From Aequorivita viscosa (GTDB lineage Bacteria > Bacteroidota > Bacteroidia > Flavobacteriales > Flavobacteriaceae): DNA of 64,000 nt. A model generated the notes under the pieces. It saw only the letters and a list, made by a program, of their open reading frames with translations, made no database searches and was not told where the DNA came from. Shown piece after piece: positions 29,551 to 33,760 of this stretch. The position numbers and the translations under genes were made by a program. Location: the NCBI RefSeq assembly GCF_900106795.1, contig NZ_FNNS01000002.1, positions 62,001 to 126,000 on the forward strand. The letters run 5' to 3'. Within the stretch, counting starts at the first letter, position 1. Each line of letters starts with the position of its first letter.

Positions 29551-29764
29551 CGTATAAGGGTTTTTAATAAGAAGAGAATGCGAATATAGTGATTTGGACT
29601 TGATACTTAAAACGTTTCGCTATAGCCTAAAAGCAAAAAAGTCTTTATACTTCGGTTGCGCTATTAGAGATATCAACGCACAATTAGAATAGTGCAAATA
29701 ACAAGAAGTACCCATATATTCACGCTTCTTTTATAGCTTAACATAGGAGTATCTAAGGAGTTTA

Positions 29765-29841
29765 GTCGGCTTAGAGTCGGCATGCAGTCGGCATGCGGTC
29801 GGCTTTCAGTCGGCTTTCAGTCGGCTTGTAGTCGGCTTTGA
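29765..29841. repeat. Seven-copy 11-bp tandem repeat (GTCGGCNTNNA)
   Basis: Seven consecutive units each begin with GTCGGC and are exactly 11 bases long: GTCGGCTTAGA, GTCGGCATGCA, GTCGGCATGCG, two GTCGGCTTTCA, GTCGGCTTGTA and GTCGGCTTTGA. The block is far more GC-rich than its surroundings. It ends 60 bases before the likely start of the next gene. The 11-base spacing is close to one DNA turn, so all units face the same side of the helix. Confidence 0.9.
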
Positions 29842-29900
29842 AATTTGTTTTTTGGGAAGAAATGTATTATATTTACCTAAGGATCAACAAACTGTATGCC

Positions 29901-30551
29901 ATGAGAGGATTCAACTACGAAAATAATAAAAATAATCCGAGGATCTACAAAAACTCTGACGAAATGACATTATGCAGTGTTTTTGTGAAGGAATTTAAGA
30001 TTGGACTGCATCCCATTTTGAAGTATTATAGGGATGGGACGCTGCACAAGAGGCTAATGAAATTATTTATGGCGATAAAGGCAGTAGATGCTAAGTCTGC
30101 GCCTGGCAAATTAAACGTTGGAGAAGGTTTACGGACCTTAAAAGGGCAGCTACTACTGCGGCAATTTGTCTTTAATCCGAAATTGGGGATACGGCAGCAG
30201 TTAGGGAATCCACAGTTTAACGAGGAGGATTTTTCATTGTTATGGTCGGATTTTGACCCCTCCTCTACCCGATTTCCCAATAGCGCAACACATTTTGAGC
30301 TTCAATATTTGGTACTTGCCTATGACAGCGAACGCACTGTTTTTACGACTTACACTGCCGCTCCGGTGCGAAGGGCCCGGAAGGATGGGGCGGAAGAGTT
30401 GGAGTTGCGAACGGAGAAAGCGATTGTTAAGCAAAAAGGTGTTCAATATTTCTTGGCAATAGGGTTACGATTTTTGGAGATTCTCGGGGAGGAGGAATAT
30501 CCGTTGTTGGGCCAGAAAGCGGTGGGGATTGAGATTTTGGATGTGGTTTGA
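29901..30551 (+). CDS. Hypothetical protein, orphan beside the 11-bp repeat
   Basis: About 216 residues from the ATG giving MRGFNYENNKNN. Upstream in-frame starts at 29862 (ATG) and 29838 (TTG) exist, but the last overlaps the tandem repeat. I see no signal peptide, membrane segment or motif I know. The protein is basic in its first half (KLFMAIKAVDAKSAPGKLNV, LLLRQFVFNPKLG) with an acidic end (EILGEEEYP). The second half of the gene is more GC-rich than neighbouring genes, hinting at a different origin. No operon partner. It could belong to a flavobacterial hypothetical family linked to the repeats, but I have no function to offer. Confidence 0.6.
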   Translation: MRGFNYENNKNNPRIYKNSDEMTLCSVFVKEFKIGLHPILKYYRDGTLHKRLMKLFMAIKAVDAKSAPGKLNVGEGLRTLKGQLLLRQFVFNPKLGIRQQLGNPQFNEEDFSLLWSDFDPSSTRFPNSATHFELQYLVLAYDSERTVFTTYTAAPVRRARKDGAEELELRTEKAIVKQKGVQYFLAIGLRFLEILGEEEYPLLGQKAVGIEILDVV

Positions 30552-31029: not shown

Positions 31030-32085
31030 TCAAAATATTATTTCGTTCAGCATTTGTTTTAGGTTCAGATGTTTTGCTCCACTAACAGTTTTTGAATTCA
31101 TTGAAACCAACTCAATCCAATCCATTATTTTTTTCTTTTCGCTCGTTTTTTCGTTCCAATATTCGGTTAACTCAATTGATGATGTGTTAATCAAAACCTC
31201 TAAAACCGAGTCTATATTCTCAAACAACTTAATATAGATTCTAGGAATATTCTTGTATGTCTTATTCTTGATTAGATAATCGTCTTTTCCGCCTGCTGTA
31301 AATAAATCTCTAATATTTGGGCATACAACAGATTCCTTTGTTACTAACCAAATAGCTAGTCGAGCAAATTTGTCTCCTCGATTACTAAAAACCTCTGGAA
31401 AGTAAACCATTGCTCTATTTTTTATTTCTTGCTTTTCTTTTTGGTTTAGATTATTCCAAATATTTATGACAAGGTTACTTGCTTGTTCTGTATCTTGTAT
31501 CCACCATAAATCCTGTCCGGGTTTTAATTTACTTTTATAGTAGTCTGTAATTGGTTTTATTGGGTTTTTCTTTTGTCTTAAAGTGTCGTAAGGCGTTTTG
31601 ATTTTGTCAAATATAGTTTTGCCTTTCTCCAAGTTCATATCTATTAAATATCTTGGCGAATGAGTAACAACGACTTCTGACAAGCATTCTTCATATGCTC
31701 TACATTTGAATTCAATCGGTTTGCCGAGTTTGCCAAATAACATAAATATTCTCTCAACATCTTCAACTCTTGTCGATTCCAAAAGGCTGTTTCCTGTTGT
31801 TTTCCAATGATTTTGAGTAGTCGTTTTTACTTCTATTCCGTAAAATTTATTTGCGATAATGTCAGGGAATTTTTGCCCGCCAATAACTTCAATAGAATTT
31901 TCAAAAGCAGTTCCTACTGCTAATTCAGTCATTACGTCTCCAACATAAGGTTCAAGTTTGTTGCCTTTTAGTTGTTCTATCTTTTTTGGTGATTTTTTGG
32001 CGTGTGCATTTAACTCAATAATTGTTGAATTAAGCAAAGCATTGAACTCGTTTTTATGCGGTTCTGAATTTACTGATACTACCAT
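31030..32085 (-). CDS. Putative type II restriction endonuclease (PD-(D/E)XK)
   Basis: A 351-residue protein with no family name I can give. A nuclease core is visible as GGQKFPDIIANKFYGIEVKTT near residue 88 (split: PD of KFPDI, then EVK of GIEVKTT), the PD-(D/E)XK pattern. It starts in a TAATG overlap with the methyltransferase stop, so the two are translationally coupled, the usual arrangement for a restriction enzyme with its protecting methylase. The C-terminal part has many charged residues and no other motif. The cut site is unknown. The gene is low in GC. It is third in the controller-methylase-nuclease operon. Confidence 0.8.
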   Translation of the reverse strand: MVVSVNSEPHKNEFNALLNSTIIELNAHAKKSPKKIEQLKGNKLEPYVGDVMTELAVGTAFENSIEVIGGQKFPDIIANKFYGIEVKTTTQNHWKTTGNSLLESTRVEDVERIFMLFGKLGKPIEFKCRAYEECLSEVVVTHSPRYLIDMNLEKGKTIFDKIKTPYDTLRQKKNPIKPITDYYKSKLKPGQDLWWIQDTEQASNLVINIWNNLNQKEKQEIKNRAMVYFPEVFSNRGDKFARLAIWLVTKESVVCPNIRDLFTAGGKDDYLIKNKTYKNIPRIYIKLFENIDSVLEVLINTSSIELTEYWNEKTSEKKKIMDWIELVSMNSKTVSGAKHLNLKQMLNEIIF

Positions 32086-33449
32086 TATTTTTTAAAATAT
32101 AAGTCCCAAACATCTTCTATTCTCTTTGCTAAATTGTAAGCGAGTAGAGGCGGAACAGCATTCCCAATTATTTTATATGCTTTTGATGGACTTACCAAAT
32201 ATGAGCCTTTACGACCTTGTTTATTCTCAATTACAAATTCATAATCGGGTGGAAAAGTCTGGATTAAAGCACATTCCCTTGGTGTTAAACGTCTTTCTTT
32301 TAGTCCTTTTGAAAGTTCTTCGGTCAATATTCCTCCATTTTTTTTGGATAATCGTCTGAACTCTATATTTCCGTGGTGTTCAGCTCGAATTGTTGGACTA
32401 ATTCCATCAGGCTTAATTTCTATTTGTCCTTGACAATGTTTACCCATAAACTTTGCTTTTGAGTAAAATTTTTGGGATAAATCATTGGATTTTTCTGGCT
32501 CTTCTAAATTTGCAAAAAGTTCTTTTAAATCTACGTGGCGTTTTAAATTATCACCGTCCGTAGTATAAGCGTGAGTTGGTTTTGGGTAAGGATTAAATTT
32601 TTCTGATATAATTTCCTTTTCCAATTTTTCTAGTGCGGATTTTTTTAAAGCAGATTTCTTGATTCCAATAAAGAAAACTCTTTCTCTTGATTGTGGAACT
32701 CCATAATCAGCTGCGTGTAAAACTCTTGGCTTTAAAACTAAATATCCATTATCTCCTGTAGATGAAAAATCACTTTGAATAATGTCTTTTACGTTTGAAA
32801 GGTTTACCAAACCCTTTACATTTTCTGCAATGAAAATTTTGGGTTGAGTAATTTCAATCACTTGCTTCATCCACATATAAAGCTTTCCGCGAGTTTCTTC
32901 TGTAGCACAAGTTTCAGTGTTTAGTTCGCCTTTGTGGTTTTTATGGGAATTGAAACCGTTTCTTTTTCCTGCGACACTAAAATCTTGGCAAGGAAAACCG
33001 CCTGTAACAATGTCGATATTTTCAGGAAATATTTTAGTTCCGCTTTGATGTAGTTTTACTAAATCTACGATACTATCGGTTTGATAGTCTTCTATATCGT
33101 GTCCTCTTTTGGAAAAATAATGCACCCAAGCATTTCTCGCATCTTTTAAAATGTCGTTTGCAAAAACTGTATTGAAACGAGTTTTTTTGAGTTGTACAAA
33201 ATTATTGTCAAGTTCCTTTTCTATAAAATCAGGGTTTAAAATTTCATTTACAGAAGATTTTAAAACAGAAAAATCGCCTTCAAACCCTAAATCCATACCT
33301 CCACATCCTGAAAATAGAGAAAGCATATTTAAAGTTGATTTTCCTTTTACCTCTTTTTTTTGCAATTCAGTTTTTACGTTGAATTTTACAGCCAATTGTG
33401 GTTCTTCAACTACGCTTGTGTTTTCAATATCAGTTGTCAATGTTCGCAT
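32085..33449 (-). CDS. DNA (cytosine-5-)-methyltransferase
   Basis: A 454-residue type II modification enzyme methylating cytosine at C5. It has motif I LSLFSGCGGMDLGFEG near residue 43, motif IV GGFPCQDFSVAG near 150 with catalytic C154, motif VI IFIAENVKGL, motif VIII PQSRERVFFIG, a target-recognition region, and motifs IX-X RRLTPRECALIQTFP and KIIGNAVPP. About 95 residues lie between motifs I and IV, longer than in small enzymes. I choose the ATG at 33449, two bases after the controller stop; a longer reading would overlap the controller by 73 bases. It overlaps the nuclease start as TAATG. Confidence 0.95.
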   Translation of the reverse strand: MRTLTTDIENTSVVEEPQLAVKFNVKTELQKKEVKGKSTLNMLSLFSGCGGMDLGFEGDFSVLKSSVNEILNPDFIEKELDNNFVQLKKTRFNTVFANDILKDARNAWVHYFSKRGHDIEDYQTDSIVDLVKLHQSGTKIFPENIDIVTGGFPCQDFSVAGKRNGFNSHKNHKGELNTETCATEETRGKLYMWMKQVIEITQPKIFIAENVKGLVNLSNVKDIIQSDFSSTGDNGYLVLKPRVLHAADYGVPQSRERVFFIGIKKSALKKSALEKLEKEIISEKFNPYPKPTHAYTTDGDNLKRHVDLKELFANLEEPEKSNDLSQKFYSKAKFMGKHCQGQIEIKPDGISPTIRAEHHGNIEFRRLSKKNGGILTEELSKGLKERRLTPRECALIQTFPPDYEFVIENKQGRKGSYLVSPSKAYKIIGNAVPPLLAYNLAKRIEDVWDLYFKK

Positions 33450-33451
33450 AG

Positions 33452-33760
33452 TTAATTTTTTACAGGATGAGATTTTAAATATTTTATTTTTCTTTCTGCC
33501 ACTTTTAAAGCTTTGTTTGCACAATCTTCGTTTGCAATTTCATAAGCAATTTTGTCACTTATAAATTGAATCATTAATTCATCTTTATCGAGTTTTAGGA
33601 TTTCGGCAAGTCGTTCCAACATTTCCTTCGTTGGTTTCCGCTCGTTTCTTTCTATTTTACTCAATATTGCTTGGTCAATATCAACATAAGCAGAAACTTG
33701 TCTTAAAAGCAGTCCCAACTCTTGTCTTTTGTTCCTTAATATTTGTCCGATTGTTTCCAT
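33452..33760 (-). CDS. XRE-type controller of the RM operon
   Basis: A 102-residue helix-turn-helix protein. IGQILRNKRQELGLLLRQVS, DIDQAILSKIERNERKPTKE and LAEILKLDKDEL form a standard five-helix XRE domain; the C-terminal third is a charged helix. It is first in the operon, two bases before the methyltransferase start. A perfect operator palindrome lies 15 bases upstream of its ATG. This matches C-protein-like control of restriction-modification systems, and repression of its own promoter is expected. It may also be a simple repressor without the activating role of classical C proteins. Confidence 0.88.
   Translation of the reverse strand: METIGQILRNKRQELGLLLRQVSAYVDIDQAILSKIERNERKPTKEMLERLAEILKLDKDELMIQFISDKIAYEIANEDCANKALKVAERKIKYLKSHPVKN

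Follow-up and report, generated by a model that had tools for sequence, protein, structure and literature searches.

A phased array of 11-bp repeats at the predicted promoter of an orphan gene in Aequorivita viscosa

Introduction

What is the role of a row of GTCGGC repeats that are set exactly 11 bp apart and stand directly before an orphan gene in a flavobacterial genome? The question is raised by a window of 64,000 nucleotides from Aequorivita viscosa (contig NZ_FNNS01000002.1, positions 62,001 to 126,000), the whole stretch of DNA analysed here. Operators of the PhoB/OmpR type, including the pho box with its word CTGTCAT, consist of 11-bp direct repeats, usually two to four, which are bound by tandem winged-helix response regulators and take the place of the -35 box. 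In type III toxin-antitoxin systems (ToxIN), repeat units of ~36 nt are transcribed together with the toxin gene. The SARP operators of Streptomyces (e.g. PimR) are likewise built of 11-bp direct repeats, each with a 7-bp core and a 4-bp spacer; monomers bind to them cooperatively along one face of the helix, and the repeats overlap the -35 box or lie next to it (PMC5930380). Intergenic direct repeats of the heptamer TAACTGA, dispersed 5' of unrelated genes, have been described also in Aequorivita sublithincola; they lie near start codons and were proposed to act on RNA (MacGregor 2015, PMC4679880).

Results

The array occupies positions 29765..29841 on the forward strand and consists of seven 11-bp units with the consensus GTCGGCWTNNN. 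The tails that follow GTCGGC are, in order, TTAGA, ATGCA, ATGCG, TTTCA, TTTCA, TTGTA and TTTGA. From base composition, seven in-phase cores are expected by chance in the window at ~5e-25, and the seven units with their exact 11-bp step are as the initial annotation had described them, as is the richness in GC (58% in the array, 34% and 40% in the two flanking stretches of 500 bp). Pairs of the form GTCGGC-N5-GTCGGC occur 23 times in the same genome, spread over four arrays, the reversed control pattern not once. Between its end and the ATG at 29901 lie 59 bp. Its true start lies earlier than the initial annotation had placed it: two leading 11-mers in the same phase, GGAGTATCTAA and GGAGTTTAGTC (the latter being GGAGTTTA plus GTC and running into the first GTCGGC), belong to the array as GGAGT-type units at 29746..29767 on the forward strand. 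GGAGTATCTAT-like or GGAGT-type units stand in the same 11-bp register 5' of most GTCGGC arrays in the genus.

Unit statistics were drawn from 121 interior units, which were picked out by their phase, without regard to core match. GTCGGC and the T at position 8 hold 1.2-1.9 bits per position, positions 9-11 only 0.2-0.65 bits. The variability first ascribed to the last five bases therefore applies to positions 9-11, but not to position 7, which is A or T only, nor to position 8, which is T in 99% of units. Steps from unit to unit measure 11 bp in 177 of 190 cases and 22 bp in 7 of 190, a phasing on one helix face which, as judged from the sequence, would be compatible with the protein binding suggested at the outset. 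Between the window and Aequorivita vitellina, 1 of 42 core positions has changed as compared to 10 of 21 at tail positions 9-11 and 50 of 213 third codon positions of the gene. The core is thus under purifying selection while the three tail bases evolve fast, in agreement with the earlier proposal of selection on the core and not only slippage. The order of units with distinct tails is kept between species (L103/L123, L114/L121, L093/L117/L133). Nearly homogeneous arrays also exist (L027, L101), and at some loci the copy number at one site ranges from 3 to 6 between species, so that the free variation named beforehand as a mark of neutral satellites is found in part.

The published promoter consensus of Bacteroidota is TTTG / TAHHTTTG (PMC6847099). 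Consensus matches to both elements were found between the array and the orphan gene: a -33 element TTG at 29845..29847, 8 bp after the last GTCGGC, and a -7 element TATATTTA at 29868..29875, 20 bp after the TTG, both on the forward strand. Together they form a predicted Bacteroidota-type promoter, TTG-N20-TATATTTA, directed into the gene. Since this promoter follows the array, and since a unit of 11 nt shifts the reading frame, we rejected the view that the array is coding or is included in the transcript of the gene.

Short leader, array, promoter and open reading frame make up a self-contained cassette (29713..30540, forward strand), which is matched in A. vitellina (G021, L128) over 828 bp, ungapped, at 87%. 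The match begins 33 bp before the first leading unit and stops within ~11 bp of the stop codon, and the flanking genes on both sides are unrelated between the two cassettes. By this comparison, array and gene appear to move as one sharp-edged cassette. In 27 other species no homologs of the window's neighbours were found beside the orthologous peptidase gene, nor was an array at this site among the matches listed. A type II restriction-modification set adjoins the cassette at 31030-33760 on the reverse strand; it is complete, with a restriction enzyme (PADLOC REase_II, E 1.5e-36), a methylase of the C5-cytosine type and a small, controller-like HTH gene.

GTCGGC arrays, with mismatches allowed, are present in at least 13 of 28 Aequorivita genomes; exact triple arrays were absent from the other genera sampled. 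We fetched and examined 48 array loci, 46 of which had enough flank for the counts, with promoters scored as consensus matches. An orphan-family gene follows the array in 10 of these 46 loci. All ten carry a promoter into the gene 3' of the array, as compared to 8.5% in shuffled flanks, and in none does a consensus promoter on the gene's strand precede the array. The spacing from the last core to the -33 TTG is 8-9 bp in every one of them; at L094, L113 and L134 it was read from the sequence by eye, since a 10-bp step confounds the automatic location of the last core. The ten comprise seven close homologs and three more distant ones, and as the loci are related by descent, their spacings count for about five independent cases. 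The fixed offset shared by close and distant homologs bears out the link between array and orphan gene on which the initial annotation was built. A tandem nucleotide array directly 5' of a protein gene is reminiscent of ToxIN, from which the present loci differ in having the promoter between array and gene; given this arrangement at ten of ten loci, none of which has a same-strand promoter before the array, a type III toxin-antitoxin system was rejected.

The remaining 36 of 46 arrays have no such gene. The same promoter type is found downstream of 25 of the 36, on the opposite strand and pointing into the array (6.6% expected), while a forward promoter occurs in only two, one of which (L108) has the geometry of the gene-linked loci and is followed by another reading frame. 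Arrays standing apart from a shared gene, which were to speak against the initial proposal, are thus in the majority, but their organisation is not random. Taken modulo 11, the distances between inward promoter and array vary (offsets read by the author). At some loci the next gene (c10, c31 or c25) begins directly behind the array. In the A. viscosa genome each of the three gene-less GTCGGC arrays (L027, L028, L029) closely follows tRNA genes (Ala, Gln, Arg-Pro-Ser). A search of eight array loci against Rfam 15 at gathering score returned only tRNAs. The predicted gene-less transcripts are no more structured than shuffled sequences (single-sequence z -1.5 to +3.0), and the consensus fold of the three A. 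viscosa copies is weak. Gene-less GTCGGC arrays are probably small transcription units of promoter, leader and array; they may be genes for small RNAs, sites of titration or leader regions of the gene that follows.

Paralogs of the orphan gene within Aequorivita carry other 11-mers in the same place, CTAGAAGGAAA followed by CATATAGTCNN in one group and CGCTATAAATA in another. In the latter, CGCTATA-type group, ~31 bp (also 21, 32 or 41) separate the last array C from the -7 box downstream, and many loci have no -33 TTG, as though the array stood in its stead. Their phase to the -7 box is non-uniform (Rayleigh p ~0.017, a value obtained from relatives that are not independent and including some mis-parsed loci). 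Outside the genus, lag-11 periodicity at p<=0.005 was detected upstream of 16 of 28 relatives in other genera of Flavobacteriaceae and of 12 of 27 in the phylum sample, i.e. 28 of 55 in total as compared to 3 of 158 control regions; not every family member has an array. One relative, from another genus (L305), has a related GGCATATAGTC array upstream. The repeat word changes between paralogs; phase and position stay. Further 11-bp arrays of GGCTTATCTAT/GGAGTATCTAT units were seen at L135, L142, L143, L145 and L146, some of them followed by a possible insertion-sequence end (GTCCTAAAAT).

In five species a gene-less element of 340-490 bp lies between two convergent genes, which in most other species are separated by only -4 to ~180 bp and in a few by long unrelated spacers. 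Two gene-less copies in A. vitellina are near-identical over ~163 bp, up to the -33 box of the promoter, where they diverge, and the A. viscosa genome contains at least seven CGCTATAAACA arrays within a dispersed element of ~430 bp. The cassette edges, the element between convergent genes and the dispersed copies together indicate that arrays travel with promoters. Neither terminal inverted repeats nor target duplications were evident on inspection of the edges of the window/L128 pair, the A. vitellina copies and those of the own genome. A promoter-like module, GGATCAAGAACAATTGTTGTGTTTATGCAAAAATTGTAGTTTACC, is dispersed over many intergenic sites (L240, L242, L243, L245, L246, L027, L253) and forms a tandem pair in L242 and L246.

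The orphan gene itself (29901..30551, forward strand) encodes a protein of 216 aa which belongs to an unnamed Bacteroidia family and, according to the family alignment, is without the N-terminal ~33 residues present in paralogs. It had no profile match in Pfam, PHROGs, NCBIfam or PADLOC, and its relatives had no useful one. The AlphaFold model (mean pLDDT 88) predicts a helical N-terminal half and an Ig-like beta-sandwich in the C-terminal half; structure searches returned just the common Ig-like sandwich (VIA Z <=6.9, residues 92-215; Foldseek best E 0.003) and no telling relative. A phage origin was rejected after 0 matches in 50,697 phage records; a single plasmid match came from Marivirga. 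The family is present in 48 of 149 Flavobacteriaceae genomes and in 27 of 296 genomes of the phylum sample. No regulator gene was found to recur beside its members, whose neighbours include T9SS-type secreted proteins, DUF5675, a zinc-finger protein and a tyrosine recombinase. The subfamily adjoining DUF5675 is mostly without arrays; in the A. viscosa genome, members of the MAKQKGILKLKGTMGD type (L242, L247-L250, L209) adjoin a DUF5675 gene, with which they possibly form a two-gene unit. A treble-clef zinc-finger gene and a XerA/integron-integrase-like tyrosine recombinase lie 3' of the orphan gene at L104 (3844-5465), L099, L065, L066 and L083. Heptamer-like microsatellites (TTTGGAATTTGGGAT, AACCGAC, GAACTGA, ACTGAAT) directly flank many family genes (L063, L067, L082, L084, L250, L185 and others).

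Discussion

On balance we favour, with moderate confidence, the view that the array is a promoter-proximal row of candidate sites for one sequence-specific DNA-binding protein controlling the orphan gene. The protein would bind head to tail, with a monomer at each helical turn and all of them on one face of the helix. Since the row ends at the -33 position, the last bound protein would touch RNA polymerase, and the bound row would control the gene, most likely by activation. The different repeat words suggest that each paralog group may have its own binder; this, like protein binding as such and activation in place of repression, is what we infer, whereas the geometry and the selection on the core are seen in the sequences.

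One-helical-turn direct repeats, as in phased operators, make up nearly all steps between units, and the register to the promoter is fixed at all ten gene-linked GTCGGC-type loci, more weakly so for the CGCTATA type. With PhoB/OmpR operators the arrays share 11-bp direct repeats, although their sequence is unrelated to CTGTCAT and no cognate regulator was found. With SARP operators they share the 11-bp pitch, the single helix face and the place at or just upstream of the -35/-33 element; they differ in having 3-9 repeats instead of 2-3, in belonging to another phylum, in having no SARP gene tied to them and in a unit word which changes between paralogs. By analogy, our best reading is that the array works like a PhoB or SARP operator, while membership in either class needs the regulator. 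The TAACTGA heptamers are similar in being short, direct, dispersed and intergenic, but have a non-helical 7-bp pitch and no common downstream gene family.

Several observations speak against a row of activator sites. No binding protein was found and no regulator gene recurs beside the family, part of which has no array. Most GTCGGC arrays do not precede a gene of this family, and in 25 of these a promoter on the opposite strand reads into the array, which a simple activator site does not explain. With the array out of helical register with the promoter, the same protein might there act as a block or be titrated. More speculatively, two linked kinds of mobile cassette could share one code, gene cassettes having a paralog-specific 11-bp promoter array and gene-less cassettes transcribing the array as non-coding RNA; RNA and DNA copies would titrate the binder, and cassette number would set expression of the family, a scheme that we hold to be decidedly unlikely. 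Quite unlikely, too, is the view that the RNA is the functional form, the gene-less loci being small RNA genes whose repeats bind an RNA-binding protein as a sponge, and the gene-upstream arrays being derived from them. The inward promoters, far above expectation, argue for it, and the unstructured predicted transcripts would suit single-stranded multi-site decoys. The gene-linked arrays, however, lie upstream of the promoter and outside the gene's transcript, none with a consensus promoter before it on the gene's strand; an exact helical step matters to duplex DNA, not to RNA, and Rfam matched nothing but tRNAs.

We consider it unlikely that the array serves to be recognised by a recombinase or transposase which moves cassettes with or without the gene, the promoter being close by incidentally. 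Such a role would be in keeping with a sharp-edged cassette in unrelated neighbourhoods, with whole promoter-plus-array elements being present or absent between the same convergent genes across species, with two A. vitellina copies whose near-identity ends exactly at the -33 box, with C-type elements dispersed in at least seven copies in one genome and with a XerA/integron-integrase-like recombinase near five gene-linked loci. Yet the arrays are internal to the cassettes, terminal inverted repeats and target duplications were not evident at the edges inspected, the recombinase is absent from most loci, the window's cassette included, and the fixed promoter offset would go unexplained. This offset is equally unexpected of a neutral satellite arising by slippage, to which we give hardly any credence: varying copy number and near-homogeneous arrays fit it, whereas a conserved core with tails diverging faster than third codon positions, a preserved order of units and different units in the same place in paralogs do not. 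Phased repeats might also merely bend the DNA upstream of the promoter without a specific protein, and an A/T-rich step (CTAT, CATA, CTTA) does recur once per turn in every unit type; in the window's unit conservation is highest in GTCGGC, which is G/C-rich and no A-tract, and bending alone is very improbable.

If the candidate operator row is what it appears to be, a widespread unnamed family of Bacteroidia now has a common promoter architecture, which would offer a handle on its regulator and its function. The arrays would constitute a natural operator-array series, from 3 to 9 sites, on which cooperative activation could be studied in a phylum whose sigma factor is divergent, and the gene-less copies mark loci, several in each genome, for which current annotation has no entry.
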